Below the pieces are notes generated by a model. That model had not been told where the DNA came from, did not search any database, and worked only from the letters and a program-made list of their open reading frames with translations. A stretch of DNA of 64,000 nucleotides from a virus: the IMG/VR virus record IMGVR_UViG_3300036884_000495, positions 53,625 to 117,624 of that record; one strand, 5' to 3'. This document shows positions 6,962-36,408 of this stretch, in pieces. Made by a program: the position numbers and the translations under genes. The number at the start of each line of letters is the position of its first letter. Position 1 is the first letter of the stretch.

Positions 6962-8129
6962 CCCATTCCTCCTCGAGTACATGCGTCGTGAGATGTGCAA
7001 GGAAGCAATTCCGTTCGCCGTCCCCCCTTCCTTGCGGTCGGCGGCTCAAAACGCCGGCCGATACCTTGCCCCCGCAGCCCAGAGCGCCGGCAAGTACCTT
7101 ACGCAATCCGCAGGGAACATCGGCGCGGGTATGGGCGTGGGCGCAGTTGCTGGCGGCCTTGCCGGTGGTATCCACGGGGCAGTCAAAGGCTATCGAGGCA
7201 ACCCAGAGGAAGAAGGTAGCGGTGGCGTTATCGGCGCCCTTGGCGGTGGTCTGTCTGGTCTGGGTCGCGGCACCCTGGCGGGAACAGCCATCGGAGGTGC
7301 GGCGGGCTTGGCATCCGGCGGCCGCGGGTCGCAACAGGTGCAGCAGCTTACGAGAGGCGCGTACAACCCCCTTGGCATCGCCGCGCGCATGGGACAGCGC
7401 CAACTGCACTCCGTGACCGGGCTCGTTCCAGGAGGGGCGCAGCGGGGCTCTCAGGAGTACATCAAGGCGCTCACGCAGATCAATGCGGGCGGGCTTCAAA
7501 CAAAAGCGCAGGCGCTTGCCACAGCCTCGAATCCGCAGCGGTCCTTTGTGGGTAAGCTTCTTGGGCGTGCGGCGCCTGTTGCAGACCCCGCGCACGTCAT
7601 GCAGGCACACCAAGCATACGATGCCGCTGTACAGGCCGCGCACGCAGGGCAGACAAGCGTCGTGGGCCTGGGACACAATCTCGCGGAGAAGGGCCTACGG
7701 CGTGGCGGCGCTGACATTCTGCACGCGGCTGGTAGCAACCTAAAGCAGCAGGGTGTCGTCGGCGGGGGCCTTATGCTCGCGGGCGCCGCCGCTCCTATAG
7801 CAATGGCGGCAGCCTCTCAAGATGACCCGAACAACCCCACGAAGGGGAGGAACGTAGGGCAGGCAGCAGGCCAAGGAATCGCGGGTGCGCTCACGCCCAT
7901 GATCGGTTCTACGGGCGCACAGCTTATAGGGCGTGGCGGTAGTGCAGTAGGCGGTACAATCGGGTCGGGCATCGACAAAATAGTAGGTGCAGTTCGCCGC
8001 CCTTCTGGTAGTGGTTTTGGTGCAGGTTCAACCACTCCGGGCGCGCAACCCGACTTGGCCTCGCCGCCCGTACAGCGTGAGTACACCAACGCCGCTCTCG
8101 GCAAACCACCTGAAGGTCTCCAGCTATGA
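6954..8129 (+). CDS. Glycine-zipper, membrane-active-type protein
   Basis: A 391-residue Gly/Ala-rich protein. After an N-terminal amphipathic stretch (MIDPFLLEYMRREMCKEA), residues about 60-125 are glycine-zipper repeats (GVGAVAGGLAGGIHGAV, GALGGGLSGLGRGTLAGTA), and a second hydrophobic Gly/Ala segment lies near residues 265-280. Such GxxxG repeats pack as membrane-spanning or self-associating helices. Similar segments occur in at least four other proteins of this window. Its stop overlaps the portal start as ATGA. A virion protein acting on host membranes during DNA entry is possible but only inferred. Confidence 0.72.
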   Translation: MIDPFLLEYMRREMCKEAIPFAVPPSLRSAAQNAGRYLAPAAQSAGKYLTQSAGNIGAGMGVGAVAGGLAGGIHGAVKGYRGNPEEEGSGGVIGALGGGLSGLGRGTLAGTAIGGAAGLASGGRGSQQVQQLTRGAYNPLGIAARMGQRQLHSVTGLVPGGAQRGSQEYIKALTQINAGGLQTKAQALATASNPQRSFVGKLLGRAAPVADPAHVMQAHQAYDAAVQAAHAGQTSVVGLGHNLAEKGLRRGGADILHAAGSNLKQQGVVGGGLMLAGAAAPIAMAAASQDDPNNPTKGRNVGQAAGQGIAGALTPMIGSTGAQLIGRGGSAVGGTIGSGIDKIVGAVRRPSGSGFGAGSTTPGAQPDLASPPVQREYTNAALGKPPEGLQL

Positions 8130-11100: not shown

Positions 11101-14100
11101 GCCGAAGCAGGTATTGTTCGCGTTGCACGCGAAGGAGACTGCGTATATCGACCGTTTGAATGTCTTCTTCAAGAAGAACTTTGATGCCACAGGCTTTACA
11201 GCCGAAAAGAGTGCAGAGGGAATACAGCACGTGTACTCCAGCACGCTGGCCGCGCAGTTCTTTCATGCGCTATGTGCTGGTGTATCTACCACGAAGAGGG
11301 TTCATAACCTTTTGAAGTATGCGGGCGAAGACCGCGTAAGGGCGCTGCTTCGTGGGTACTTCGATGGGGATGGCTGTTACCACGAGAAGGGCGACACCAT
11401 ACATAGGGATGTAACTACAGCAAGTAGGCAACTAGCCGCCGATGTACGCGAGTTGCTCTTAGCGTACGGCATGATCTCCTCGCTAACGTACATAGCGCCA
11501 GCCTCCTACAATATTTGCGGTAGGCTAGGAATGGCACACGGCGCCTACAAGATACAGCTAGGCAGTGATGCTGCTCACCACTTTGACGCGTGGTTAGCGC
11601 ATACAGGTCTCCCCAGCACAGCGCGCTGCACTCTTGGCGTGTTTGCGGACCGATGCTTCTGGCACCGCATAGACGAGATCCGTGAGGTAGAAGCAGCCGA
11701 AGTGATTGGCTTCCAAATGGATCATGCCGCCGTTGTACGTCTGGATGATGATACCGAGGCACACGGTACCTTCTGCTTGTGGGGTAGCGCGTCCTGTAAC
11801 ACAAACTATATTCCGATTCTACCCCTACCCATTGGCAACCAAACCATTGGAGGCGATGGCAAGGCGCTTCTGATGTCCCAAGAGATGCAGATGCAGGGAG
11901 AACAGATCATCATGGGCATGGGGGTTCCGAGGGAATTTTTGCAGGGAGGGATGTGTCTCACAACGGATTCGCTCCTGTGTACCAGCAGTGGGCTTCTTCG
12001 CCTGGACGAGCTCGTTGGTGACATTCGCAAAGGGCAGGTAACCGCAGTACAGACGCATGCTGGCGTACATACCGCGAGTCAGGGGCACGACGTCGGCAAG
12101 AAGAAGGTTTGGCGTGTGACTACGCGAAGTGGCTTAGAGCTCACAGGGGCGGGCACGCATCCGTTGTATGTGCTCAATGCCGATGTATCTGCCGACTTCA
12201 CGCAAATCGAGCAGATAAGCGCGGGTGCACATGTTGGTGTAAAAGTAGGGGCAGAGTTGTGGCCGACAGAAGCCCCGCAACTTCAAGTCTCCCCTGAACG
12301 GATCGGGGGGCGATACGCCAACGTAACGCTGGATACTGTTACGGTTCCCAGTGTATTGACGGCGGAATTGGCCAGACTGCTTGGGTACCTTGTTGCAGAA
12401 GGATCTTGCGTAGAAGATCACCGTATCTCCTTCTCCATCACGGACAAAGATACGGCGGAAGACTTTGCACACTGCCTGTTCTCCGTCTTCGGTATCCGTC
12501 CCGCGGTTGCTGCGGTTTCCTATGCACGCCCCGCCGACGGGAAGCAGATGGTCAAGTACGCCACAGAGGTCGGACGGCAAACCGTGGTGGAGTTGCTGCA
12601 GAAACTAGGTCTAAAGCATTACTCGCAGGATAAGGTAGTACCTACCGTGGTTCGGCACGCGCCGCGCGCGCTTGTTATCGAGTTCTTGCGCGCATACTTT
12701 GATGGTGATGGCGGAGGGGGCACATACGACGGCAGGTCTGTCGTAACAGCTACTTCCACGTCTTGGCGCTTGCTGCAGGAAGTGCAACTTCTGCTACTGA
12801 ATTTAGGTATCGTATCCACTAGATACCCCGCCTATGCGGGGAAGTCCGCGGCTACTCTGCACGTGCGCGCGGAGTTTGCACAAAGGTTTGCCACTGTTGT
12901 TGGTTTCGTTTCCGCACGAAAGCAGGCGCTTACGCTTGACTACAACGAAAGTGCGGTGGTATCCCCGGACAAATTGCCGGGGTTGCGAGAAGCGCTACTT
13001 CGTGCGCGAGAACGACACGTACACGGCTTTGGCAGTTGGAAGTTTGAACCCGTCGATTTGGTACTAGACAAGCACGAGTATACAACCGAAGAAATAGCTG
13101 CCCTTGTGGGCAGAGACTCTTCGACGGTCCGCATCTACATACGCACCGGCAAGATAGCCGCGGAATTGCGTACGGGCGCCTCCGGGCGCTTCTCCTATCA
13201 CGTGGTTTCGCGGGCCGAGCTTCAGCGCTTCTTAGCAGAACATGGCTTAGGGAAGCGAAGATCATTTCGTGTGCACCAATATGCGTACACATACGATCGC
13301 GTACAGAAGATGGACTTGGCAGCGGTACAGCAACTAGAGCCGGCACTACACCAGAACCTGCTAGACAGGGTACAGGAGCACTTCTTCTGGGATGAGGTAG
13401 TTACGGTAGAAGAGCTGGAGCTAGAAGAGTGTATGCAAGATATTGGTGTCGAGGACGTGCACTCGTACCAAGCTGGCGGCATCCTTTGTCACAATTCCTA
13501 TGCGGGAACAAATGTCTCTATGCGTATGCTGGAGAACCAGTTCCTGTCATTCATCGGACGCCAGAAGCAGATGGCGAACTGGGTCATGAACATGGTGGCG
13601 CAGTTCATGGGGTGGCCGAAGGTGAACGTGCGCTTCAAGCCGTTCAAGATGGCCGACGATATGCAGCGCAAGTCGTACTTGTTCCAGCTGAATCAAGGCA
13701 ACAAGATCTCCGATACGACGCTCCTTGCCGATGCCGACTTGGACATCGAGGAGGAGAACGACATCATGTTGCAGGAGGCGTCTCGTCGCCTGGCGGCTGT
13801 CAAGAAACAGCAGCTCGCGATGGCGGAAATCCAAGGCGAGAGCCAAGTCATCATGATGAAGATGCAGGCGCAGGCGCAACAAGCAATGCAGGCCGCGCAG
13901 ACGCAGCCTTCTGCGCCTGGCGAGCCGGGTGTGCCGCAGAACGGCCCCATGAGCCCTGATCAGGTGGGGCAACTCGCGCAGCAGTCCAGACAGGCGCAGG
14001 AGACACCGATGCCTATGCCCCCGGTGCTACCCACGCCGCCCACAGATACCGAGGGTGCCGGTTCCTCTGTGCCCGCGCAGGCGCAAAGCCCGTTGAACAG

Positions 14101-14410
14101 GGGTCAGGACCTTGGTACCGCCCCCGGTGGCGAGCAGATGCCCGTAGACATCATCCAGCTCGCAGACGCGTACGCCAAACAGATCGCACAACTCGACCCC
14201 GACATGCAGGAGTCTGCGCTCAATGCGCTCGCAGCACAGAGCCAAGACCTGGCAGACCTTGTCCAGGAGTTCATGGCCAAACAGCAAGGGCAGGCTGAAG
14301 TAGCCGCCCCCATGTTCGGAGGCGCCACTGGCGGGCCGGCAACGGGCGGTATTGACCAGCGCCCACTACCAGAGAAGCTACCCCCAAGAAGGGCACAGGC
14401 ACTTGTATGA
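8126..14410 (+). CDS. Phage portal protein containing three inteins
   Basis: The 2094-residue precursor contains three inteins; removing them leaves about 696 residues, a plausible portal length. The extein reads as a portal: a helical N-terminal part (TVKQMFKFCRYYFMTNPLIN), a zinc-ribbon-like insertion (CTACGF...CPKCGQ), a core with TLGKKDIVETMPQIFL and GWGTPLILPVLKDTFYLQIM, then the split segments SILLEHIVPLRILFPQ, TNYIPILPLPIGNQTIGG and SYAGTNVSMRMLENQFLSFI. A Gln/Ala-rich C-terminal tail follows. Portals form the dodecameric DNA channel at a capsid vertex. Its start overlaps the upstream stop (ATGA), and its stop overlaps the next start. The portal call rests on overall resemblance and the terminase, protease and capsid genes in the window. 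All three inteins must splice to give a functional product. Confidence 0.8.
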   Translation: MSFSFGNFSLGSASGAGRLAGGMTRGRMQGGNTQGVNYPSPFFDVAHTYLPTTVKQMFKFCRYYFMTNPLINAIVCKLSEYPVTDIVIDHEDPEVVRRWTEYFNETIRFRSFQIECGLDYHAYGTSAVSLSFPFQKYLTCTACGFSEQARKIRENWIYSSHEFRLTCPKCGQTGAATPKDWYYRDASAIKPVRWNAEDIEVSYNDITGDCTYFYTMPAPVRADVTLGKKDIVETMPQIFLQAMRQEKGVVFSKANLFTMKRPGLATQDRGWGTPLILPVLKDTFYLQIMKKAQECVAPGTLLETPAGLQPAGSLGVGDIVRSHTGAWRHITQKKLRPMLAENGDYAVKFSISGLRQLPSTVSNTHPIYVLRRNQKNRRIDTKEHRRSSYMLRNPSLYDLHFVDAGEIEVGQYVGYPIARSKDCTEVDLASYAGDFAVTEKYVYSGVSLATATAFESLEAGERVLHNNAGRVAKRAIAAVDAPKRAERWLELDEDLAYIAGWYVGDGSIGARRVDFSMGPDDNGVELEQAIDRVFGCVCTHTPSETSRGWNLCASETIFSQFFSNWIPGGSHEKRIPREVLEAPNAIVLAFFRGYLEADGWTRGDGSRIAACLCNGGLAYQLWQLSLSLRCIATVSERESTETTITNRKGKKMVLSAGRPVFQFAVNTASARRLCGLMEGRDVDSIETGKSGFFLGDYFLGRINSVECVPCSEVISFEVEEEHTFCLPGMATHNSILLEHIVPLRILFPQAGSGTTDPFTTINLLDWRDQVAMEIARWRMDCVTPDSLVESAKGIVRADDVCVGDQLRNHLGQLSTVEKVWRRPLREGERAYQVVVRGLYGAVSTVSEGHPFMARRKYNNGNGHKLGDTTEFIRAKNLRVGDYVGYPIPEFPDHDKTHLDLAGFVTNAATEKWVYYDHQETAVPDAFEYLENCGSPEKRQPLLEEKGWSINQYKTAQMAIRGGRTPSRIPRHVPFDEELCWVLGLYLAEGNTTPKQVLFALHAKETAYIDRLNVFFKKNFDATGFTAEKSAEGIQHVYSSTLAAQFFHALCAGVSTTKRVHNLLKYAGEDRVRALLRGYFDGDGCYHEKGDTIHRDVTTASRQLAADVRELLLAYGMISSLTYIAPASYNICGRLGMAHGAYKIQLGSDAAHHFDAWLAHTGLPSTARCTLGVFADRCFWHRIDEIREVEAAEVIGFQMDHAAVVRLDDDTEAHGTFCLWGSASCNTNYIPILPLPIGNQTIGGDGKALLMSQEMQMQGEQIIMGMGVPREFLQGGMCLTTDSLLCTSSGLLRLDELVGDIRKGQVTAVQTHAGVHTASQGHDVGKKKVWRVTTRSGLELTGAGTHPLYVLNADVSADFTQIEQISAGAHVGVKVGAELWPTEAPQLQVSPERIGGRYANVTLDTVTVPSVLTAELARLLGYLVAEGSCVEDHRISFSITDKDTAEDFAHCLFSVFGIRPAVAAVSYARPADGKQMVKYATEVGRQTVVELLQKLGLKHYSQDKVVPTVVRHAPRALVIEFLRAYFDGDGGGGTYDGRSVVTATSTSWRLLQEVQLLLLNLGIVSTRYPAYAGKSAATLHVRAEFAQRFATVVGFVSARKQALTLDYNESAVVSPDKLPGLREALLRARERHVHGFGSWKFEPVDLVLDKHEYTTEEIAALVGRDSSTVRIYIRTGKIAAELRTGASGRFSYHVVSRAELQRFLAEHGLGKRRSFRVHQYAYTYDRVQKMDLAAVQQLEPALHQNLLDRVQEHFFWDEVVTVEELELEECMQDIGVEDVHSYQAGGILCHNSYAGTNVSMRMLENQFLSFIGRQKQMANWVMNMVAQFMGWPKVNVRFKPFKMADDMQRKSYLFQLNQGNKISDTTLLADADLDIEEENDIMLQEASRRLAAVKKQQLAMAEIQGESQVIMMKMQAQAQQAMQAAQTQPSAPGEPGVPQNGPMSPDQVGQLAQQSRQAQETPMPMPPVLPTPPTDTEGAGSSVPAQAQSPLNRGQDLGTAPGGEQMPVDIIQLADAYAKQIAQLDPDMQESALNALAAQSQDLADLVQEFMAKQQGQAEVAAPMFGGATGGPATGGIDQRPLPEKLPPRRAQALV
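9008..10324 (+). mobile_element. Intein 1 of the portal gene (LAGLIDADG)
   Basis: This 439-residue in-frame insertion starts with Cys (CVAPGTLLETPAG, block A) and ends ATHN before Ser+1. Block B is STVSNTHPIYVL; the block F region is ISFEVEEEHTFCLPGM. The endonuclease core has two LAGLIDADG-like helices, LAYIAGWYVGDGS and VLAFFRGYLEADG. Splicing would join KKAQE to SILLEH. All canonical splice residues (Cys1, Thr-x-x-His-type block B, His-Asn, Ser+1) are present. It resembles intein 2 of the same gene (VGQYVGYPI versus VGDYVGYPI, then TEKYVY versus TEKWVY), suggesting duplication or a shared source. Confidence 0.92.
10466..11800 (+). mobile_element. Intein 2 of the portal gene (LAGLIDADG)
   Basis: A 445-residue intein beginning CVTPDSLVESAKG and ending SASCN before Thr+1. 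Block B is STVSEGHPFMAR. Endonuclease helices are LCWVLGLYLAEGN and VRALLRGYFDGDG. Splicing would join RWRMD to TNYIPILP. The penultimate residue is Cys instead of the usual His; the terminal Asn and Thr+1 nucleophile are kept. It lies only 141 bases after intein 1, which it resembles. Confidence 0.9.
11954..13495 (+). mobile_element. Intein 3 of the portal gene (LAGLIDADG plus HTH insertion)
   Basis: A 514-residue intein beginning CLTTDSLLCTSSG and ending GILCHN before Ser+1. Block B is LTGAGTHPLYVL. Endonuclease helices are LARLLGYLVAEGS and VIEFLRAYFDGDG. It is 70-75 residues longer than its neighbours because of an extra segment with a helix-turn-helix domain before the C-terminal splicing block (listed separately). 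Splicing would join FLQGGM to SYAGTNV. Canonical residues Cys1, His-Asn and Ser+1 are present. Confidence 0.92.
13079..13249 (+). other. Helix-turn-helix domain embedded in portal intein 3
   Basis: About 57 residues read YTTEEIAALVGRDSSTVRIY followed by IRTGKIAAELRTGASGRFSY and VSRAELQRFLAEHG. This is the layout of a MerR/excisionase-type winged helix: helix, turn, recognition helix, wing, then an AELQRFL helix. It lies between the endonuclease core and the C-terminal splice block. The minus-strand gene at 36414-37115 has a similar N-terminal domain (ITVAEAAKILGTTCRRIQQW). It may add DNA-target specificity to the endonuclease; that is inference. Confidence 0.7.
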
Positions 14411-20229: not shown

Positions 20230-23200
20230 ATGGCCTATCTGGACCCAAAGCAGGCGTTTGCGGATCTGAAGACTAACGTTCTTGAGGGGCTCGAGGCACA
20301 CTTCCCGATTACCGGTACGAAGCAGAGCGTGCACCTCGAGGGGCTTGATGTGCGCGAGAACAAGCACGATGTGGGCGACCTGCAGGCGCAGCACCAGACG
20401 AAACTTGACGGGGGTTCGTGGGGCGCTCCGGTGTACGGCACGCTGGCCCTGAAGAACAACGAGACGGGGGCCGTCATAGATCGCAAGACGATCAAGTTGG
20501 CTGACCTGCCGCAGATGACGCAACGACACAGCTATATCGTGGACGGGCAGGAGTACCAAGTCGACAGCCAGTGGCGCCTGAAGCAGGGTGCGTATACCCG
20601 CCGGCGAGATAATGGGCAGTTGGAGACGCAGTTCAACACCCTTGGCAAGAAGGGATTCGACATCACGTTCAACCCAGAGAACAAAGTGTTCTCCATGACC
20701 CGGGGGTCTTCTGAGAACATCCCGGTGTACACGCTAATGAAACACCTTGGGGTAGACGACACCTCCTTGGAGAAGTCCTGGGGCAAGGACATACTCGATG
20801 CGAATAAGAGCGCACGCGGCGTGAACACGGCCCTCGATCGCTTCTACAAGGCGGATAAGAAGAGGGCGCCCGCGACGCCAGACGAAGCAAAGCAGCACTT
20901 CATCGACTCCATGCTGGGGGCAAAGCTGCGCCCGGACTCCACAGAGATCACGCTAGGAAAGCCGTATACGCACGTGAACGGGGACGTGTTCCATGCCGCT
21001 ACGACGAAGATGATCGGCGTGCAGCGCGGCGACATCCCAGAGGACCAGCGAGACAGCTTGGTGTTCAAAGACCTGCGCACGGTGGCTGACATCGCGAAGG
21101 ATCAACTGACAAACTTCAATACGGTGTCCGCGATGAAGAAGCGCGTAGGGCGCAAGATCAATACGGCGACGAGCGTCCGCGAAGTCGTGCGCAGTGACAT
21201 GCTCTCGGCACCTGTTCGGTCCGCCTTCACGGGCAACTCCCTCTCACGCGTCGCAGACCAAGTGAATCCCGTGGAGATGATCACCTCCAGCTTCCAGACC
21301 ACCATCACAGGCCCCGGCGGCATTCAAAGCGACCATCAGATCAGCGAGACGGCAAAGTTGATCTCACCCAGCCACATCGGGTTTCTTGACCCTGCCCACA
21401 CCCCGGAAGGGTGCTTCGATGAGTGTACGGAGGTTTTCACGTCTAGTGGCTGGGTGCCCTGGCCCTCGGTTACGCAAGCTACGTACTTCGCCTGTCTCGT
21501 AGATGATCGCTTGGAATTCCACCTCTCGTCGGAACTACAGGACTACGAATACTCCGGCAGGATGTACGGTTTACGTAAACCGGGCTTTGAGTACCTTGTG
21601 ACGCCTAACCATCGTATGCTTTGCAGGCCCTTGGATGACGGCACTGTTTACCGTGTCGTGCGCGCTGACGAGATGCATGAAAAACCACGCTTCTTCAAAG
21701 CAGGACATGAGCCGTACGTTGGGCAGAATGCTGCGCGCTACGCGCTGCCATACGTGCCCGGTAATAACAGCAGCAAGAATGTAGCGGACGTCGACTTCGG
21801 GGACTGGGCCGAGTTCGTAGGGTGGTTTTTGTCAGAAGGCAGCTGTCGCTACGAGGAGAGCAGCAGTGCGTATATGATAAAAGTGTTTCAGAGCGAGATC
21901 AACACCGCTTGCTGCCGTCGTATTGAGGCCCTGTTAGACCGCCTAGGCTTTACGTGGTGCCTGTCTGAAAGAGAACACGGACGAAACGTCTACACGGTCG
22001 CCACTAAGCAACTCGCATGGTACATGCGGCAGCTGGGTACAGGCCCCTTCGACAAGCATATGCTTCCAGAGATGCATGACTGGCCGGTGCACGCGCGCTA
22101 CCGCTTGATGGAGTCGCTGATGCTCGGCGATGGCCGTCTAAACCACACGCATAAAAAGGCTAAGCAGCAAGGCTACGCGTACACCACAACGAGCCCCGCA
22201 CTCGCCCTAGACGTCGAGCGTGTGATCATATCGTTAGGCTGGGCGGCGCACATTTGTCGCTATGAAGACAAGCGCGAAGAACGCTACAAGGACGTTTACG
22301 AGGTACGGCTTCTTCTACATAAGGAGTCGTCAACAAGAATGAGCTCGAGACGTCGTGGGGAGTGCCCCTATTACACGCTCGATTACAGCGGACGGGTGTA
22401 CTGCGCCACGGTACCTGGGTCGTTTTTGTACGTGCGTAGAAACGGCAAGCACCCCATCTGGCTCGGCAACAGTAAGACGGGAGTAACCTCCCATTTACCG
22501 CTATTCGTGACTAAAGAGGGGAACAGGCCAATGATTCCTGTCTTCAACCTCAAGACGCAGCAGATGGATCGCATCGACCCTGTGACCTTCCACAACTCGA
22601 AGGTGGTGATGCCTGACCAGGTAACTTGGGACAAGAACAAGCCTACGGCGGTGGCGAATACGATTACCATCTCAAGCAAGGGCAATGAGCTGGCCGACGG
22701 TACGCTAAAGGGGTCGGACTACGTGATGCGCCACCCCAGTCAGCTATTCAGCCTGACCACAAACCTAATCCCCTTCTTGAACAACAACTCGGGCAACCGC
22801 GTAAGCTACGCAACCCACCACATCGAACAGGCGATCAGCCTTCACGATCGCGATGCGCCGCTTGTGCAGGTGGGCACGGGCCGCCAAGACGGCATCAAGA
22901 CCTTCGAGGATCTTGTGGGCAGGCAGTCTGCGCACACCTCGCCTACCGCCGGCACAGTCACCGCCATCACCGCCAACCACATCATGGTGACGGGTAAGGA
23001 TGGCGAGAAGAAGATAGGCATCTACAACAACTTCCCCCTCAACGACCCGAAGTCGGTGCTTCACAGCACGCCGGTGGTGAAGGTGGGCGACCAAGTAACC
23101 GCAGGGCAGCTCGTCGCCGATAACAACTTCACGCGCAATGGCACTCTCGCTCTAGGGAAAAACTTGCGTGTCGCCTTTGTTCCGTTGAAGGGCTACAACT

Positions 23201-26200
23201 TCGAAGACGGCGTTGTTATCAGCGAGACCGGCGCGCAGAAGATGTCGAGCGAGCATATGCACAAGCCCTCCACTATCCTTGGCCCTGGCACCATCACAGG
23301 CCTGGATAAGTACAAGGCGCTGCACCCTACCGGCTTCGAGAGGGATCAACTCGCGAAGCTAGGGGACGACGGTATCGTGCGCATTGGGCAGATCGTACAA
23401 CCCGGGGATCCGCTCGTTGTGGCGTCGAAGCCGTATGAGTCCAAGGGGTCGATGTCCCTCTCCAGGATCCGCAAGAGTCTCAGCGCGCAGAACATGGATG
23501 CCAGCTTAGCGTGGAAGACCGACCACCCCGGCGAGGTGGTAGGCGTGCATCAGGATGACAAGGGCAACGTCACGGTCCACGTGAAGACGATTGAACCGAT
23601 GCAGGTTGGGGACAAGATTGCAGGCAGGTACGGCAACAAAGGTATTATTACTGCCGTGGTACCAGACCATGAGATGCCGCATACAATCGATGACAAGGGC
23701 GTGAAGTCCCCGATTGAAATGGCGCTCAATCCCTGTTACGACGACCAGACAGAATTTCTGACGAAGCGTGGGTGGGTGCTGGGTAAAGACCTGCAAGACC
23801 ATGACTTCCTGGGTACTGTGAACCCGCAGACTTTCTGCTTGGAGTACCAGCGCCCCGTAGAAGGCATCTCTAGGCAGCAGTACAAGGGAAAAATGTACTT
23901 CTTGCAGAACAGGGAGCTGGAGCTGTGTGTGACGCCTAACCACAGGAACTTTGTGGCGACACGTTGTACCGACGCTCTTGGCGTCCTTGACCTCGAGTAC
24001 CTGCCGGAGGGTTTATTTAGACTAGAAGAAGCCCGTAGTCATTTCGGGAGAGCACGCAGATTCCTAAAGACCGCACGTTGGGCGGGTGTGGACCCCGGCG
24101 TTATTGTAATTCGCGCTGGCACTCAACGACTCACCGGCCCGAAGCAGAGTAGCCTTACTATTGCATCCGCAGACTTCGCGGAATTTATGGGTTGGTACAT
24201 CTCTGAGGGTTATTGCTCATACAACAAAGCTTCAGGGGCATACGGAATCAATATATGTCAGGCACGCGCGGCCAACCCTAAGAAGCACGCAAAGATCGAG
24301 GGACTGCTTATGCGTCTTGGGCTGGCGTATACGGTCCGCGATACCGAGTTCCAGGTAAGGCACAAGGGGTTGTACGAATACCTTAGGCCGCTAGGTCTGT
24401 GCGCAGATAAGTACATTCCTGAGGATATACAGCAGCTACCCCCTGCGCTTCTGCGCATCTTCTTGGATACGTACCTAGCTGGCGACGGGAATACTAGGTA
24501 TGAACCGGCACGTGGGCACTACAACACACGACGGTTCACAACAACGTCGTCTCGTCTTGTAGACGACCTGCAGATTGTGGCGCTAAAACTGGGCTTAGTA
24601 GTAAACAAGCACAAGCCTACAACCAGGAAGAACAAGCCGGGTGCTCCCTGTTTCGATAGTGCAGTAGGTTCTAGGAACAAAGCGCCCTGGGCTAATTGGT
24701 CGGAGGATACGAAGGAGAACCAAGTAGAGGCGTGGGTCGACTACTCTGGCGTTGTCTACTGCGCGGAGGTTCCAAACCACACGCTTGTTACACGTCGTGG
24801 GGGCACTGTAGTTGTATCTGGCAACTGTGGGATTCCAGGCCGAATGAATATGGGGCAGGTGCTGGAAACAGCCGCCGCCAAGATCGCCCATAAGACTGGG
24901 CAGACTTACATCGTGAACAACTTCGAGCACGGTGTGGATGCCTTGGACAAGGTCAAGAAAGAACTCAAGGCGCACGGCCTGTCTGACACCGAGGTATTGC
25001 ACGATCCCATGAGCGGACAAGAGCTCGGACCCGCACTGGTGGGCATGCAGCACATACTCAAACTGAACTTCCAGATCGACAAGAAGGTTTCCACGCGTTC
25101 GGGCATGCCACTTGATGGTGCCGAGGCGGAGCACTACGACGCGGATACGCTCATTCCTTCTGGCGGCGGCAAGACCGGCGGGCAGTCCATGGGTAACCTT
25201 GGGATGTATTCGATGCTGGCACATGGGGCGACCGCGAACATCCGCGAGATGCAGACGTGGAAGTCAGAAGGTGCCGATCGCAAAGAGCGCTGGGACTCTC
25301 CCCACCACGAAATCTGGAACGCGATTCAGAACGGGGACATCCCCCCTCCGCCTAAGAAGACCTTCGCCTTTCAGAAGTTCGAGGACACGCTACGCGCCGC
25401 GGGTATCGACGTGCAGAAGAAGGGGCACCAGATGCTCCTCACGCCTCTTACCAACCAGCAGGTTCTGAAGATGTCCAAAGGGGAGCTTCCCGAACCCGGG
25501 TATGTGACCTTTGCGAAGCCCGATGCCAATGGCGAACCCACTACACGTAAGGGTGGCTTGTTCGACCCTGTCCTCACTGGCGGGCACGGCGGAAAGAACT
25601 GGACGCACATCGCGCTCCCAGAACCCGTCCCGAACCCCGTGTTCGAGAATGCCATCCAGCGCATCACAGGGCTGACGAAGAAAGAGTACACCGACGTCAC
25701 CACCGGCGAGAAGGCTATCAGCAAGGACACTGGCAAGATCGTTCCCCTTGGCACCAAGAATGCCATCGCAGGCGGTGCAGGTATCGCGCACATCCTCGGG
25801 CAGATGGATGTGAAGGAGGAACTCGCGAAGGCGCAGAAGTCTCTCGATTCGTACAACATCCCTGACAACATCGCCCATAGAGAGGGCACGCAGGAGATCG
25901 ATAAGCGCTCGAAGAAGGTTCGCTACCTGACCGCACTCGACAACGCCGGCATCCATCCGAAGGACGCTTACGTGCTGACGAACCTGCCGGTCATTCCGCC
26001 GTTGATGCGCCCCTCATCATTCCTTCCAAGTGGAGACGTCAATCACGCGGACGTCAACCAACTCTACGCGGCGATCGGTGACATCTCCGGGGCGATGAAG
26101 GACAAGAACTACAAGTTCCTGAGTGACCACGACAAGAAGATAGACCGCGCCAACATGTACGACGGCGTGAAGGCGCTCATGGGCGTGGGTGAGAACTGGG

Positions 26201-28863
26201 GCGACCGCGGGAAGCAACCCAAAGGACTCCTTCTTCAAATCGCGGGGAGTAGCCCGAAGGAGGGCTTCTTCCAAAGTACGCTGCTCTCACGTCGCCAAGA
26301 CATGACGATGCGCGGGACGATCACCCCGGAGCCCGGACTCGGTCTCGATAGCGTGGGCCTGCCGGAGAAGAAGGCGCTCGACTTGTTCCGCCCCTTCGTC
26401 GTCAAGAAGCTGATTGATATGGGTGCTGCAAACACGCCACGCGAAGCACACACGCTCTTGGCGGAGCCGGGCAAGAAAGACCCGATGGTCTACAAGGCCC
26501 TCGACCACGTGATGGCGGAGCGGCCTGTGCTCCTCAAGCGCGACCCGTCGCTGCATAAGCATAGCGTCCAAGCGTTCTGGTCCCAACGTGTAGGTGGAAA
26601 GGCGATACAGATACACCCCCTGGTTACAGGTGGGTTCGGGGCGGACTTTGATGGGGACAGTATGGCTGTGTATGTCCCAATCGGGAAGGAAGCCGTAGAA
26701 GAAGCGAAGAAAATGCTGCCCTCGGCGAACATCTATAACGAGGCGAGCGGCAAGGTGATGTACCAACCGACGTTGGAGTCAAGTCTTGGCCTATTCAAGT
26801 TATCGCGCGTCACGGGAGATGGCAAGCAGAAGTTCGACTCGCATGCGGACCTGCTCAAGGCTGCGCAGACGGGCGCACTAAAGGTTACTGACAAGGCCGA
26901 GGTGAACGGTAAGGCGACAACTGCAGGGCGCATCATGTTGGCCGCTGCGCTGCCTGATGCCTTCCACACGGACATCATGCACAACCTCGATATGCGCCTG
27001 AATAAGAAGGGCGTCGACAAGCTGTATACGACGGTGGCGAAGGAGCACACGCACGACTTCGCGGATGTCTCCTCGAGGTTGATGCGCCTGGGATACGACG
27101 CCTCCTTCGGCGCCATCAAGATTCAGAACCCCAATACGGCGGGAACCGCGGGCGCTGTGGAGAAGGAAGGCGAGAACCCGAAGGGGCACGTACAGTTCCT
27201 GGCTATGGGAACGCACTCCCTTAGTTTGGCCGACTTCACTCCAGACAAGGCGACGCGAGACCCTATCGTGGCGGCTACGCAGACGCAGGTAAACAGCATC
27301 AACGCGCGCAGGGACATCGGAGACAAAGAGAAGGAGCATCACGTGAAGGAGGCGTGGTTCGACGCCACAGAGAAGATGGTGAAGGAGCACGATGCCAAGA
27401 TGGAGAAGCAGCCAAACAACCTGTTCCTCATGCAGCAGGCCGGCGTGAAGCCCTCCCCAGACCAGTACAGGCAGCTGCGCCTCGCGCCCATGCTGATGGT
27501 TGACAGCCTGAACAAAGTCATCGCCAAGCCTGTGACCAAGAGTTACTCCGAGGGCCTCGATGTGGGCTCCTACTGGTCTCAGATGTCTGGTGCCCGGCGC
27601 GGCTCGGTGCTCAAGGTGCAAGAAGTGCAGGAGCCTGGGTACTTCACCAAGCAGCTGATGAACACCACCATGGGCATACAAGTCACGACGCCCGACTGCG
27701 GGACCTCGCAAGGTTTGCACATACCCGTGCATTCGCAGGACATCTTCGATCGCACGTTGGCGCAGGACCACACGTTCGGCGGCGTGACCTATGCGAAGGA
27801 TTCCATCATCACCCCACAGGTGGCATCAGCCATCAAGTCGGCAGACAAGAATGCCACGCTGCTCGTCCGATCCACGATGAAGTGTGAGCATGGCAACGGC
27901 GTTTGCCAGAAGTGCGCAGGACTTTCCCCCACAGGGCAGCACTACGACATCGGCACGAACGTGGGCGTACTTGCTACGCAAGCCCTCGGTGAACGCGCCA
28001 CGCAACTCACACTCAAAGCCTTTCACTCAGGAGGCCTCGCCACGCGCGGGCCCAGTATGGTCAACAGCTTCCTTCGCGTGCAGCAGCTGACGTCGCTGCC
28101 GAAGGAGATCCCCAACGCCGCACGATTGGCAGAGAGGGACGGCACCATCGAAAAGATCGAGGAAGATCCCACAGGGCACATCGCATACATTGGGGGCGTC
28201 GCACACCATATCCCCAACGACCAATTCGGTAACCCGTTGTTCAAGCCACCACCCGGTGAGACAGAGACAGAGGGCCCAGGAGGCCTGAAGTGGGGCGGTA
28301 TCCAGGTGGGCATGAAGGTAAAGGCGGGGCAGTCTTTGACCGATCCCTCGCGTACGGACATCAATCCCCACGACCTTTATCGCGTGACGGGTAATATGTC
28401 AGAAGTGCAGAACCAGATGGTGACCGAACTCCACGACATCTACGGGCGCGAAGGCGTGCGTAGGCAGAACGTAGAGACGGCCATGCGTGGGCTGGGAGAC
28501 CTCACAAGAGTCGTGGATTCTGGCGACCACGAGCACTTGGTCAAAGGACAGTTCACGTCGAGAGCCGCAGTGCAGGTGGCGAACAAGGAGCTTGTAGCGA
28601 ATGGGCTACAGCCGGTGCAGCACACGCCTATACTCAAGGGCATCGAAGTGATGCCGCTCGAAATACAAGAAGACTGGATGGCGAAGTTGAATCACCAGCG
28701 TCTACGTACTAGCCTGCAGGAAAGCGCTTCCCTTGGAGCCGCCTCTAACCTCCACGGCACAAACCCAGTAAGCGGCATGGCGTACGGCGCTCAATTCGGC
28801 ATGACCCAAAAAGATAAGTACGTCCACCCAGAGCTCAAAGACGTGCCGAACTACGCCTACTAA
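20230..28863 (+). CDS. Fused beta-beta' multisubunit-type RNA polymerase with two inteins
   Basis: The 2877-residue precursor leaves about 2160 residues after removal of two inteins. Beta signatures in order: HSYIVDGQEYQVDSQWRLK, HTPEG/SKTGVTSHL (canonical TPEGPNIGLI), GYNFEDGVVISE near 988, GDKIAGRYGNKGII near 1128, ALNP/CGIPGRMNMGQ, and the beta C-terminal clamp YSMLAHGATANIREMQTWKS. Beta' signatures follow in the same chain: THIALPEPVPNPVFE, LTNLPVIPPLMRPS, ITPEPGLGLDSVGLPEKKA, VLLKRDPSLHKHSVQAFW, the catalytic GADFDGDSMAV near 2137, zinc-site residues TPDCGTSQG and CEHGNGVCQKC, and the trigger-loop motif GERATQLTLKAFHSGG near 2587. It would transcribe phage genes. No alpha, omega or sigma gene is seen here. 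The fusion point lies near residues 1740-1790. Confidence 0.95.
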   Translation: MAYLDPKQAFADLKTNVLEGLEAHFPITGTKQSVHLEGLDVRENKHDVGDLQAQHQTKLDGGSWGAPVYGTLALKNNETGAVIDRKTIKLADLPQMTQRHSYIVDGQEYQVDSQWRLKQGAYTRRRDNGQLETQFNTLGKKGFDITFNPENKVFSMTRGSSENIPVYTLMKHLGVDDTSLEKSWGKDILDANKSARGVNTALDRFYKADKKRAPATPDEAKQHFIDSMLGAKLRPDSTEITLGKPYTHVNGDVFHAATTKMIGVQRGDIPEDQRDSLVFKDLRTVADIAKDQLTNFNTVSAMKKRVGRKINTATSVREVVRSDMLSAPVRSAFTGNSLSRVADQVNPVEMITSSFQTTITGPGGIQSDHQISETAKLISPSHIGFLDPAHTPEGCFDECTEVFTSSGWVPWPSVTQATYFACLVDDRLEFHLSSELQDYEYSGRMYGLRKPGFEYLVTPNHRMLCRPLDDGTVYRVVRADEMHEKPRFFKAGHEPYVGQNAARYALPYVPGNNSSKNVADVDFGDWAEFVGWFLSEGSCRYEESSSAYMIKVFQSEINTACCRRIEALLDRLGFTWCLSEREHGRNVYTVATKQLAWYMRQLGTGPFDKHMLPEMHDWPVHARYRLMESLMLGDGRLNHTHKKAKQQGYAYTTTSPALALDVERVIISLGWAAHICRYEDKREERYKDVYEVRLLLHKESSTRMSSRRRGECPYYTLDYSGRVYCATVPGSFLYVRRNGKHPIWLGNSKTGVTSHLPLFVTKEGNRPMIPVFNLKTQQMDRIDPVTFHNSKVVMPDQVTWDKNKPTAVANTITISSKGNELADGTLKGSDYVMRHPSQLFSLTTNLIPFLNNNSGNRVSYATHHIEQAISLHDRDAPLVQVGTGRQDGIKTFEDLVGRQSAHTSPTAGTVTAITANHIMVTGKDGEKKIGIYNNFPLNDPKSVLHSTPVVKVGDQVTAGQLVADNNFTRNGTLALGKNLRVAFVPLKGYNFEDGVVISETGAQKMSSEHMHKPSTILGPGTITGLDKYKALHPTGFERDQLAKLGDDGIVRIGQIVQPGDPLVVASKPYESKGSMSLSRIRKSLSAQNMDASLAWKTDHPGEVVGVHQDDKGNVTVHVKTIEPMQVGDKIAGRYGNKGIITAVVPDHEMPHTIDDKGVKSPIEMALNPCYDDQTEFLTKRGWVLGKDLQDHDFLGTVNPQTFCLEYQRPVEGISRQQYKGKMYFLQNRELELCVTPNHRNFVATRCTDALGVLDLEYLPEGLFRLEEARSHFGRARRFLKTARWAGVDPGVIVIRAGTQRLTGPKQSSLTIASADFAEFMGWYISEGYCSYNKASGAYGINICQARAANPKKHAKIEGLLMRLGLAYTVRDTEFQVRHKGLYEYLRPLGLCADKYIPEDIQQLPPALLRIFLDTYLAGDGNTRYEPARGHYNTRRFTTTSSRLVDDLQIVALKLGLVVNKHKPTTRKNKPGAPCFDSAVGSRNKAPWANWSEDTKENQVEAWVDYSGVVYCAEVPNHTLVTRRGGTVVVSGNCGIPGRMNMGQVLETAAAKIAHKTGQTYIVNNFEHGVDALDKVKKELKAHGLSDTEVLHDPMSGQELGPALVGMQHILKLNFQIDKKVSTRSGMPLDGAEAEHYDADTLIPSGGGKTGGQSMGNLGMYSMLAHGATANIREMQTWKSEGADRKERWDSPHHEIWNAIQNGDIPPPPKKTFAFQKFEDTLRAAGIDVQKKGHQMLLTPLTNQQVLKMSKGELPEPGYVTFAKPDANGEPTTRKGGLFDPVLTGGHGGKNWTHIALPEPVPNPVFENAIQRITGLTKKEYTDVTTGEKAISKDTGKIVPLGTKNAIAGGAGIAHILGQMDVKEELAKAQKSLDSYNIPDNIAHREGTQEIDKRSKKVRYLTALDNAGIHPKDAYVLTNLPVIPPLMRPSSFLPSGDVNHADVNQLYAAIGDISGAMKDKNYKFLSDHDKKIDRANMYDGVKALMGVGENWGDRGKQPKGLLLQIAGSSPKEGFFQSTLLSRRQDMTMRGTITPEPGLGLDSVGLPEKKALDLFRPFVVKKLIDMGAANTPREAHTLLAEPGKKDPMVYKALDHVMAERPVLLKRDPSLHKHSVQAFWSQRVGGKAIQIHPLVTGGFGADFDGDSMAVYVPIGKEAVEEAKKMLPSANIYNEASGKVMYQPTLESSLGLFKLSRVTGDGKQKFDSHADLLKAAQTGALKVTDKAEVNGKATTAGRIMLAAALPDAFHTDIMHNLDMRLNKKGVDKLYTTVAKEHTHDFADVSSRLMRLGYDASFGAIKIQNPNTAGTAGAVEKEGENPKGHVQFLAMGTHSLSLADFTPDKATRDPIVAATQTQVNSINARRDIGDKEKEHHVKEAWFDATEKMVKEHDAKMEKQPNNLFLMQQAGVKPSPDQYRQLRLAPMLMVDSLNKVIAKPVTKSYSEGLDVGSYWSQMSGARRGSVLKVQEVQEPGYFTKQLMNTTMGIQVTTPDCGTSQGLHIPVHSQDIFDRTLAQDHTFGGVTYAKDSIITPQVASAIKSADKNATLLVRSTMKCEHGNGVCQKCAGLSPTGQHYDIGTNVGVLATQALGERATQLTLKAFHSGGLATRGPSMVNSFLRVQQLTSLPKEIPNAARLAERDGTIEKIEEDPTGHIAYIGGVAHHIPNDQFGNPLFKPPPGETETEGPGGLKWGGIQVGMKVKAGQSLTDPSRTDINPHDLYRVTGNMSEVQNQMVTELHDIYGREGVRRQNVETAMRGLGDLTRVVDSGDHEHLVKGQFTSRAAVQVANKELVANGLQPVQHTPILKGIEVMPLEIQEDWMAKLNHQRLRTSLQESASLGAASNLHGTNPVSGMAYGAQFGMTQKDKYVHPELKDVPNYAY
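21412..22470 (+). mobile_element. Intein 1 of the RNA polymerase gene (beta TPEG site)
   Basis: A 353-residue intein starting CFDECTEVFTSSGW and ending HPIWLGN before Ser+1. Block B is LVTPNHRMLC. Endonuclease-like helices are WAEFVGWFLSEGS and RLMESLMLGDGRL. It interrupts the beta motif TPEG|SKTGV, one of the most conserved points of the subunit. The penultimate residue is Gly instead of His. It resembles intein 2 of the same gene (FVGWFLSEG versus FMGWYISEG). Confidence 0.93.
23734..24825 (+). mobile_element. Intein 2 of the RNA polymerase gene (beta NP|GIPGRMN site)
   Basis: A 364-residue intein starting CYDDQTEFLTKRGW and ending VVVSGN before Cys+1. Block B is CVTPNHRNFV. Endonuclease-like helices are FAEFMGWYISEGY and LRIFLDTYLAGDG. 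It splits the beta motif ALNP|CGIPGRMN (canonical NPLGVPSRMN). The penultimate residue is Gly, the terminal Asn is present and the +1 nucleophile is Cys. Confidence 0.93.
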
Positions 28864-30174
28864 ATGTCCAAGAACATCACCAGTCCGAAGACCAACACGA
28901 AGTCCCCGATGGAGCGCACAAGCATGCGCACCTCGTGGACGCAACCTGCAGGGGGCACCGCCGCCTTCATCCACGAGGCGCGGGTTGTGGACTACAACTT
29001 GGTGACGTGGACGGTGGACGTGCGCACGCAGTACGACCAGAAGTTCTATCCGAACATCCAGGTGGGCGGCCCGTACATGCACCCGAATCGTGGTGAGGGC
29101 TTCTATGCGATGCCGGACATCAACGCCAAGTGCCTGGTGTGCATTCCCAGCGACGGTCCGCCGCCATACATCTTCACGTTCATCATGCCGATGGAGACGC
29201 CAGAGGATCCGGCGGGCAGCACCGCCACTACTGCGGCAGCCACGACGGCCGCACAGAGCGCAACGGCGCAAGCCGGAGCAAGCCAAGGTGCTGTGTTCTC
29301 CGGTGGGCGTACACGGGCAAAGCCTGGTGACATGGTTTGGAAGGGCCGCGATGGCAACTTCGTAGTCCTACACCGAGGCGGCGTCCTGCAGATTGGATCA
29401 ACGGAACTCGCACAACGAATCTACATCCCGCTCGGGAACATCATCACGGACATCAGCCAGAACTACGAGCACCATAACTCTGGGGGCTCAATCAACTGGG
29501 GGCTGTCTTCCAGCTACACGGACGACAACGCAGAAACGTCCTTCCTCCAGACGTTTCGAACGTTTGTGAACAACGACATGGCCGACGTGCGCGTAGCCAT
29601 AGGCTACGTCCACCAACCGGTGCCGGAGCCGCCGGGCGGAGAGGCGGCGAACAATGCGGGCATGAACATCGGTGTGGATGCAAATGGGGACGGCACCATC
29701 GTCGCCGAGTTTGTGATCGCCCCCGGAGGCTTCACAACCGAATCGGGAGCACCCACAGGGGACGCCGCGAAGCTGTCGGTCATCCGACTGTTCTTCGACT
29801 CGAATGGCGGCGCATTCCTGCGCGCACAAGCGAGCCTGAACGTGCGCGTAGGCAAGAAGCTACGTCTCGCTGTGAATGACCTCGTGGTCGAAGCAGACAA
29901 CAACATCCAGATGTCCGCGAAAGGATCTGCGCGCATAGCGGGTGCCGCCGGCGTACAGATCACAGCGGCTTCTGGTGCCGTTGTACTCAATGGCGGCGGT
30001 TCGCCCGTGGCCGTTGTGGGGTCCGCGGTAGATGTACTTATCTCCATGCCGATCCCAATCAGCGTAATGGTGGGCACGACGCCGACGACTGGCGTGATCC
30101 TTGGCGGCGCGAAGCTGACAGGGTTTGTAGTGAGCGGATCTCCAACAGTGCTCGCACCCGGACCGGGGGGTTGA
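28864..30174 (+). CDS. Baseplate/tail hub-like protein (gpV/gp5 OB-fold type, tentative)
   Basis: A 436-residue protein. The N-terminal region (about 35-110: AARVV-type strands EARVVDYNLVTWTVDVRTQ, GEGFYAMPDINAKCLVCIPS) resembles the OB-fold of phage baseplate assembly proteins gpV/gp5. The C-terminal third has beta-repeat character (VVEADNNIQMSAKGSARIAG, AAGVQITAASGAVVLNGGGS) like spike or beta-helix segments, ending in a Gly/Pro-rich tail. An Ala/Thr-rich linker lies near residues 118-145. It starts immediately after the RNA polymerase stop, with no clear ribosome-binding site, so translation is probably coupled. The role is inferred from pattern only. Confidence 0.6.
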   Translation: MSKNITSPKTNTKSPMERTSMRTSWTQPAGGTAAFIHEARVVDYNLVTWTVDVRTQYDQKFYPNIQVGGPYMHPNRGEGFYAMPDINAKCLVCIPSDGPPPYIFTFIMPMETPEDPAGSTATTAAATTAAQSATAQAGASQGAVFSGGRTRAKPGDMVWKGRDGNFVVLHRGGVLQIGSTELAQRIYIPLGNIITDISQNYEHHNSGGSINWGLSSSYTDDNAETSFLQTFRTFVNNDMADVRVAIGYVHQPVPEPPGGEAANNAGMNIGVDANGDGTIVAEFVIAPGGFTTESGAPTGDAAKLSVIRLFFDSNGGAFLRAQASLNVRVGKKLRLAVNDLVVEADNNIQMSAKGSARIAGAAGVQITAASGAVVLNGGGSPVAVVGSAVDVLISMPIPISVMVGTTPTTGVILGGAKLTGFVVSGSPTVLAPGPGG

Positions 30175-34345: not shown

Positions 34346-34613
34346 GCGAAAACTCCACACTGGCCTTGCCGATCTTGACGTACTTCGCGAGCCACCCAAC
34401 GTCCAGGGCGGCCGACCGGATGATGCCTCGAACGGTCTTGTGCATGCTGTGTGGCAAGTCCTTGTGGGCCAGCGTGGCCCTGTGCTCGCACTTCTCCGCG
34501 TCGGCTTTGATCGACCAACCCCCGGGGAAGTGCGGACCGGCACTATTCAACCACACCCACACAGCCATCAGCGCCCCTTGTGGGTCGTCGGTTTCTTGAG
34601 GTTCCATGGGCAT
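34218..34613 (-). CDS. Antisense hypothetical protein, 131 aa
   Basis: A 131-residue protein on the minus strand filling the gap between two plus-strand genes (34346-34605). The central part reads as real protein (LMAVWVWLNSAGPHFPGGWS, DVGWLAKYVKIGKASVEFSL), and the codons show the G/C third-base bias of this genome. ATG at 34613 is preceded by AGGAAAAGGTAGGG. It overlaps the terminase start by 8 bases and the upstream gene by 128 bases, so transcripts would be antisense to packaging genes. CEHRATLAHKDLPHSMH carries Cys/His that could bind metal. Function unknown. Confidence 0.62.
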   Translation of the reverse strand: MPMEPQETDDPQGALMAVWVWLNSAGPHFPGGWSIKADAEKCEHRATLAHKDLPHSMHKTVRGIIRSAALDVGWLAKYVKIGKASVEFSLKPYPLEQRLLAEAKSESFRQAAHRKREESRLHREDSHTPVP

Positions 34614-36408
34614 CCCTACCTTTTCCTACTTTCGAGACCACGACGTAGCACCGTACGCACCAAGCGACGACCTCGATGATACATGGTACGACGAGGAGGT
34701 CTGGGCGCCGCCCGGAGGACAGGCAGAAACACCCTTTGCCGAGTCACCACATCGAGAGCTAGACATAGGCGACGTACCTATCATCGACCCGTCGCAGTTC
34801 ACAGAGCGTGCCTTCAGGATGCCACTAGAAGATGGGACAGGCTATGGACCCTTCTCGTTCGAGGGCCGTAACCACCTTCAGCGCATCTACGATACGCCAG
34901 CACGACGCATTTTGCTGTGTTGCGGCAGACAAGTAGAAAAATCGACAATGCTTGGAAATCGCGCAATAGCGTACTGCGCCCTTGTCACGGCAATGCGCAT
35001 TCTGTACGTCAGTCCGTCGCAAACGCAGGCGAAGACGTTCAGCAACGACCGTATCAAGGAGCCGATAGAGACAAGCCCTATCCTGCGCCGGTTCGCCGCG
35101 GATATGATCTCGCAGAACCTCCTTGAGAAGCAGTTCGTAAACCGCTCGAAGATCACGCTTCGCTACGCCTTCCTCAATGCCGATCGAACTCGAGGAATTC
35201 CAGCGCATCAGCTATACATCGACGAGGTACAAGACATCCTTCGTGACAACATCCCTGTCATCGAACAGTGCACCTCCCACGCCCCTGACAGGTGGAAGGG
35301 CTTCGTCTACGCCGGTACCCCGAAGAGCCTAGACAACGTCATAGAGGAGTACCGCGCGAACCAAAGTACGCAGGGGGAGTGGGTGGTGCCCTGTGGCTGC
35401 GGCAACTGGAACATCCTCGGGGAAAAGAACATAGGCAAGAAGGGTCCAATCTGCGCACGCTGCGGTAAAGGTATAGACCCACAAGGCCCGCGTTGTGCCT
35501 GGGTATGGATGGTCACCCCTGATGCAGAACGCGTACGCGTCCCGTGGGAAAGCTACCGCGTCTCGCAGTTGATGGTGCCCTGGAAGATCCGCAACTGGAA
35601 CGAGGTACTTCACGACTACGAGCACTACCCGCGTGCGCAGTTCATGAACGAGTGCTTGGGTATCTCCTACGAAGTAGGCACACGTCCCATCACCCAGGCG
35701 CAGGTTCGAGCACAGTGCATAGAGTATTCGATGTCCGAACTGGATTCGCTGCAGGCGCGGTCCAATGCCGAACCCTTCTTCGCGGGTATCGACTGGGGTT
35801 CCGGCAGCAACAGCTACACGGTGCTCACGCTTGCAACGTACGTGGATAACCGCTTCCGCGTGGTGTACATGCACCGGTTTGTCGGCGAGGACACAGACCC
35901 AGACATACAGATCGCCAAGATCATCGACATCTGTAAGCGCTTCCACGTTGCGCTGATCGGCGCCGACTATGGTTATGGCTTCGGCATGAACAGCCGCCTA
36001 GTGCGCGAGTTCGGCACCAATAGAGTTCACACCTTCCAGCACATGGCGCGTATCAACAAGCGCGTAGTCTGGGACCCCAAGATGCTGCGCTGGAAGATTC
36101 ACCGCACAGAGGTGATGAGCGCCATCTTCGAGGCAATCAAGAAGGGCAAGGCGCAGTTCCCCCGCTGGGAGGAATTCCAGAAGCCCTTTGCAGAGGACTT
36201 CACCAACATCTACAGCGAGTACAACGAGAAGCTTCGTATGATCATGTACGACCACAAGGCGGGGAGTCCCGACGACTCCTTCCACTCGTTCATGTTTTGC
36301 TGGCTTGCTTCCATGATTATGATACGACGCCCGGACATCATCGCACCCTCTATCGAGATAGATGGCGTGCCCGTTTCCTCTTATAGTGGAACGACGAACC
36401 AAGGGTAG
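34606..36408 (+). CDS. Terminase large subunit (packaging ATPase/nuclease)
   Basis: A 600-residue terminase. The Walker A region is CCGRQVEKST at about 105-114. Walker B is LYIDEVQD at 203-210, followed by the coupling motif AGTPKSLDN at about 236-244. A CGCGNWN...CARCGKG zinc-ribbon-like insertion lies at about 263-289. The C-terminal RNase H-like nuclease has FAGIDWGSGSNSYTVL (first Asp about 396), IGADYGYGFG (about 454) and SPDDSFHSF for the third acidic site. It cuts and translocates DNA into proheads through the portal. ATG at 34606 follows TTGAGGTTCC. It is intein-free, unlike portal, protease and RNA polymerase. Confidence 0.93.
   Translation: MGIPTFSYFRDHDVAPYAPSDDLDDTWYDEEVWAPPGGQAETPFAESPHRELDIGDVPIIDPSQFTERAFRMPLEDGTGYGPFSFEGRNHLQRIYDTPARRILLCCGRQVEKSTMLGNRAIAYCALVTAMRILYVSPSQTQAKTFSNDRIKEPIETSPILRRFAADMISQNLLEKQFVNRSKITLRYAFLNADRTRGIPAHQLYIDEVQDILRDNIPVIEQCTSHAPDRWKGFVYAGTPKSLDNVIEEYRANQSTQGEWVVPCGCGNWNILGEKNIGKKGPICARCGKGIDPQGPRCAWVWMVTPDAERVRVPWESYRVSQLMVPWKIRNWNEVLHDYEHYPRAQFMNECLGISYEVGTRPITQAQVRAQCIEYSMSELDSLQARSNAEPFFAGIDWGSGSNSYTVLTLATYVDNRFRVVYMHRFVGEDTDPDIQIAKIIDICKRFHVALIGADYGYGFGMNSRLVREFGTNRVHTFQHMARINKRVVWDPKMLRWKIHRTEVMSAIFEAIKKGKAQFPRWEEFQKPFAEDFTNIYSEYNEKLRMIMYDHKAGSPDDSFHSFMFCWLASMIMIRRPDIIAPSIEIDGVPVSSYSGTTNQG

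Follow-up and report, generated by a model that had tools for sequence, protein, structure and literature searches.

The stretch of DNA analysed here (the window) comprises 64,000 nucleotides of a viral record that is itself a 117-kb fragment. On its plus strand lies an ATG-started open reading frame (ORF) of 2877 aa, without internal stop, which encodes the precursor of a fused beta-beta' RNA polymerase (RNAP; Table 1). The original prediction, that the beta and beta' motifs follow each other in one frame, is borne out by the length of this ORF and by the motif positions, all the named motifs being found inside it in the expected order. Pfam, NCBIfam and PDB profile searches all place beta before beta' along the chain, and the Pfam matches of the window protein run from beta to beta' (Rpb2_6, 1.1e-44; Rpb1_2, 3e-22; Rpb1_5, 1.2e-14; Rpb2_3, 1.3e-6). 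Against the bacterial beta and beta' (rpoB/rpoC) equivalog models, its intein-free relative L041 gives matches of between 1e-84 and 1e-148, in every case below the membership cut-off.

AlphaFold2 models were built for L041, which is 71-75% identical to the window protein over the three exteins, in two pieces (residues 1-645 and 555-1500). The first model (pLDDT 88.6, pTM 0.85) matched bacterial beta (Foldseek 4.8e-41, TMq 0.78), and the second (pLDDT 85, pTM 0.75), which spans beta and beta', matched in the PDB the cyanobacterial beta (2.4e-30) and gamma/beta' (8.9e-29) chains. The bacterial folds of both subunits were thus recovered by Foldseek from the two models, the last third of the chain (660 residues) being assigned by HMM only. 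The homology excludes chance, as does the recurrence of the fused frame in about a hundred further viral loci, although some of these overlap as fetches from a single contig. On the evidence of its sequence, we consider it confirmed that the window gene is a real, phage-encoded one-chain beta-beta' RNA polymerase with the full catalytic set.

The reading frame contains two inteins (residues 395-747 and 1169-1532), both starting with Cys, ending with Gly-Asn and followed by Ser or Cys. Once they are removed (353 and 364 aa), ...HTPEG is followed by SKTG... and ...NP by CGIPGRMN..., which leaves 2160 aa, in accordance with the length predicted after splicing, and the spliced chain is indeed shorter than bacterial beta plus beta'. 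The insert of the relative L043 lies at the site of intein 1 and is 59% identical to it, and the sites of both inteins are empty in most relatives, L041 included; since relatives carry or lack inserts at exactly these sites, the intein borders are confirmed. In other relatives the insertion sites are GDK, GNKG, DFDGD or the trigger loop, which indicates that inteins in the RNAP gene favour catalytic motifs. Intein/LAGLIDADG segments are also seen near the virion module in two further window genes (8126-14410 and 38644-41454); predicted inteins are thereby present in at least three genes of this phage.

Alignment with E. coli rpoB/rpoC shows that the C-terminus of beta joins the N-terminus of beta' directly, without linker or frameshift; when a patescibacterium is included, the beta C-terminal 'LGINIE' is seen to pass within a few residues to the beta' 'ASPDMIRSWS'. 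Residues 1-18 of bacterial beta' have no counterpart in the window protein; neither has zinc-binding domain 1, which is deleted in all six relatives aligned as well. The alignment that includes the patescibacterium shows that the second zinc site, the bridge helix and the trigger loop are retained. Across 67 non-redundant fused sequences, no variation is seen in the aspartate triad, the two beta lysines or the histidine of the trigger loop (67/67). A frameshift between the halves or a loss of catalytic residues, either of which had been named as counter-evidence to the prediction, is thus absent. The clamp-helix hairpin and the flap-tip segment keep their shape, with changes at the residues shared there by E. 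coli and the patescibacterium; some of these clamp-helix and flap-tip residues are presumed to contact sigma.

Table 1. Features of the fused polymerase gene and its surroundings (window positions)
Feature	Position	Strand	Basis or remark
Upstream intein-bearing gene, homologue of Arash gp204 (annotated portal)	8126..14410	+	conserved upstream of RNAP
Fused beta-beta' RNA polymerase precursor ORF	20230..28863	+	2877 aa; 2160 aa without the two inteins
Extein 1, beta N-terminal part, ends ...HTPEG	20230..21411	+	splice borders; L041 beta fold
Intein 1, 353 aa, at TPEG^S; starts C, ends GN, next residue S	21412..22470	+	same-site relatives
Extein 2, beta middle	22471..23733	+	motifs
Beta middle motifs in extein 2	GYNFEDG 23191; GDKIAGRYGNKG 23608	+	motif search
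Intein 2, 364 aa, at NP^C, LAGLIDADG domain	23734..24825	+	PF14528, 2.8e-12
Extein 3, beta C-terminus then all of beta'	24826..28860	+	motifs, alignment
Beta/beta' junction KKGH^QMLL	25426..25431	+	spliced residues 1016/1017; alignment with E. coli rpoB/rpoC
LPVIPPLMRP motif, 5' of clamp-helix hairpin	25984..26013	+	motif, alignment
DFDGD, catalytic aspartate triad	26644..26658	+	invariant, 67/67
Second zinc site, DCGT ... CEHGNGVCQKC	27694..27930	+	Cys in 63-65/67
Trigger loop GERATQLTLKAFHSGG	27988..28035	+	His invariant, 67/67
436-aa gene, ATG directly after RNAP stop	28864..30174	+	conserved next gene, no assigned function
Terminase large subunit, downstream, same module	34606..36408	+	homology, conserved order
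Probable major head protein	46657..47778	+	phrog_2522, 8.7e-11

A scan of viral contigs yielded 39 loci with the same fused gene, and a profile scan, whose results overlap with this set, yielded 288 relatives, of which 80 were kept. The fusion is intact in every complete relative from both scans, the proteins being mostly of 2020-2260 aa without inteins, and the near-complete relatives have genomes of about 165-200 kb. One polymerase locus per record was observed in this record, in 16 relatives and in two cultured relatives, Vibrio phage D69 and Salmonella phage Arash. In these two isolates, beta is fused to the N-terminal part of beta' (1525-1527 aa) and the C-terminal third of beta' is a separate gene (606-609 aa), the cut lying near the point where cyanobacterial rpoC1 ends and rpoC2 starts; their polymerase genes are annotated as hypothetical or as 'subunit beta'. 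A near-identity search of a phage collection gave no match. Other tailed phages, referred to here as the split type, have separate genes for beta' (~905 aa) and then beta (~1010 aa), many of them with two beta' loci and a Gp23 capsid.

A phylogeny of 43 taxa (IQ-TREE) was computed with beta and beta' cut at the real junction, and with split-type contigs in place of the original sequences of the multimeric-RNAP-encoding Caudovirales (mReC) of Weinheimer and Aylward 2020 (PMC7481178). The fused type groups with D69 and Arash (UFBoot 94) and, when L154 is added, with full support (UFBoot 100), the split type standing apart. All the phage polymerases compared group apart from bacteria (UFBoot 100), the deep order being uncertain with long branches. 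The phylogeny places the fused clade among phage sequences, apart from both bacteria and the split type. The polymerases of Staphylococcus phage SA 1306 and of the Acinetobacter 'phage' MD-2021a were rejected as relatives: both branch with bacteria, the latter gene lying inside a ribosomal-protein operon. In the records OR844998.1 and CAKLQH020000005.1 (L046 and L047), filed as phages, the polymerase genes fall among the bacterial ones and seem to be contamination from a host.

Several contigs binned with bacteria also drew attention. Two close fused-type relatives, L123 and L124, are found in bacterial MAG bins (Deltaproteobacteria and an unnamed bacterium), which is possibly a host hint, or a misbinned phage. 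The fused beta-beta' polymerases encoded by five unannotated Thermotogota-binned contigs (L135, L138, L140, L143, L144) are very small, at about 1260-1380 aa, and that of L143 has Rpb2_6, Rpb1_2 and Rpb1_5 matches in one chain; these enzymes may belong to phages or plasmids. Further fused beta-beta' genes (1660-2306 aa), outside the clade of the window in the tree, are present on the MAG contigs L130, L131, L136, L141 and L145, whose sources are Jettenia, Nitrospirae, Desulfobacteraceae, Lentisphaerae and UBP16.

The genes flanking the polymerase keep a conserved order: portal homologue, RNAP, the 436-aa gene, genes of 210, 701, 309 and 161 aa, and terminase. In D69 and Arash too, the portal homologue is just upstream of the polymerase. 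No over-represented motif of the 4+4 spaced type was found in 30 upstream regions of the record.

The original prediction also held that no alpha, omega or sigma gene is present. For alpha and omega this stands in 19 records (the window record, 16 relatives, D69 and Arash), where neither gene gave a match and the positive controls worked. For sigma, it can be said of the 117-kb fragment only, where no such gene was found, near-complete relatives being longer (about 165-200 kb). In 8/18 relatives, D69 and Arash included, a match to sigma-70 region 2 or 4 exceeds the cut-off. These sigma genes are of unlike types, and in D69 and Arash they lie about 9-10 kb from the RNAP gene. Because of the sigma genes in relatives, the suggestion that the polymerase 'works alone' is not established. 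Their presence in several members also differs from the situation in the phiKZ group of jumbo phages, in none of which a sigma factor was found in a published survey (PMC7824862). In another lineage, Cobetia phage Carin-5 (L237, 3799-4389) has an annotated sigma gene that precedes its split-type beta' gene by about 12 bases, a candidate for a dedicated phage sigma serving a phage polymerase.

As the best explanation of these data, we propose the following course of events, which as a whole we favour with moderate confidence. Both inteins would excise and the chain would fold in cis into the usual crab-claw, so that the alpha-driven assembly of beta with beta' would be unnecessary; these steps, up to the one-chain core, are strongly suggested by the spliced sequence. 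The polymerase would be made together with the products of the portal-terminase-capsid genes and would most likely be packaged and injected, transcribing the early phage genes. Its promoters would be chosen by a phage sigma-type or lineage-specific factor, and not by the host sigma, since the residues by which the bacterial clamp helices meet sigma are not kept. It could also be that the sigma genes of the relatives serve the host polymerase, or that small unrecognised subunits replace alpha or omega.

Packaging in the virion appears probable from the position of the gene and from the precedents of the crAss-like gp66, P23-45 gp96 and the phiKZ virion polymerase (vRNAP), although the two polymerase genes of Arash are not annotated as structural when many Arash genes are. 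The one-chain polymerase could instead be a non-virion enzyme that transcribes middle or late genes, the early ones being left to the host polymerase, a possibility that we take seriously while judging it the lesser one. The non-virion polymerases (nvRNAP) of AR9 and phiKZ are used in this way beside a virion enzyme (PMC7598289), the sigma genes of relatives such as D69 and Arash would fit a promoter-specific use in the cell, and the RNAP genes of Arash carry no structural annotation. However, the gene lies inside the portal-terminase-capsid module and adjoins the next gene, so that it is probably itself transcribed late, and there is no second polymerase to transcribe it. Packaging is the role that we prefer.

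Partly overlapping with this question of use is one of classification, namely whether the window polymerase is a plain member of the published mReC clade, the Caudovirales with full-length beta and beta'. The window record does come from a tailed phage in which beta and beta' are full-length, the same kind of gene is concerned, the phage polymerases compared stand apart from bacteria in the tree (UFBoot 100), and the published search criteria would leave room for a fused protein. Nevertheless, we find membership unlikely: the mReC major capsids all matched PF07068 (PMC7481178), and this Gp23 family was matched in 0/19 fused or D69/Arash records (17 fused-type plus these two) against 7/13 of the split type. 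Moreover, together with D69/Arash and L154 the fused clade stands apart from the split type (UFBoot 100), it has one polymerase in the order beta-beta' where the split type has two in the order beta'/beta, and the text of that paper describes no fusion (PMC7481178). It is the split-type phages that fit the published mReC. A recent capture of a host rpoBC operon, fused afterwards, would account for the bacterial gene order and recalls the fused rpoBC of some bacteria (NCBIfam NF007172 and NF011417 match), but is highly improbable given a best score of 495 against a membership cut-off of 5372, the branching of the clade with phage sequences far from bacteria, and the absence of zinc domain 1 from all the fused sequences aligned. 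Least credible of all is a degenerate, inactive remnant: two inteins do interrupt catalytic motifs, yet they look intact, the frame is full and the active site is invariant in all relatives.

More broadly, and only tentatively, we suggest that a large clade of tailed phages of about 165-200 kb uses a self-sufficient bacterial-type polymerase made as one chain, which virions would carry and phage sigma-like factors would guide, and that the fusion came first and the splitting seen in D69 and Arash later. If true, this order of events would run against published work in which the split state of phage polymerases is taken as the older one, and a splitting near the cyanobacterial split site would bear on the origin of split phage polymerases. 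In bacteria, assembly of the core polymerase goes through alpha and includes omega. A single chain with a complete bacterial active site, from phages without alpha or omega genes, would give structural and assembly studies a minimal core found in nature, and with the isolates D69 and Arash the questions of packaging and sigma can be addressed directly by experiment.

Polymerases with two barrels in one chain are already known in phages, and some of those of the crAss-like, P23-45 and YonO types are virion enzymes (PMC10770324, PMC7281927). Fused derivatives inside the cellular-type clade appear in a published dendrogram, and a divergent viral beta/beta' gene, possibly fused, has been published from hydrothermal mats, in a text without a word on fusion. 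We found no published description of a fused bacterial-type polymerase clade in phages; what appears new here is this clade, complete, bacterial-like, in beta-beta' order, with one polymerase per genome and a sigma in several members. With mReC it shares the tailed phages and full-length, alignable beta/beta' outside the bacterial tree (PMC7481178), whereas the separate beta' and beta genes, the frequent two loci and the Gp23 capsid of mReC-like split contigs are all lacking in the fused type. D69 and Arash share the fusion of beta to the N-terminal part of beta' and differ in the separate C-terminal part. The phiKZ-type vRNAP and nvRNAP are likewise two-barrel enzymes without alpha or omega, but with beta and beta' each in pieces and two sets per genome (PMC7598289), neither of which holds for the fused type. 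Bacterial fused rpoBC (NF007172, model length 2890) is also one chain in the same order, but is a longer, bacterial core enzyme, the equivalog score being here 495.5 against a cut-off of 5372. Finally, the window RNAP has both barrels in one chain like phi14:2 gp66 of the crAss-like phages, P23-45 gp64/gp96 and YonO (PMC10770324, PMC7281927), and like the crAss/YonO/QDE-1 type in general; in contrast to the crAss-like, P23-45 and YonO enzymes, which are highly divergent and poorly recognised by cellular models, the window RNAP can be matched over its whole length to bacterial beta and beta'.
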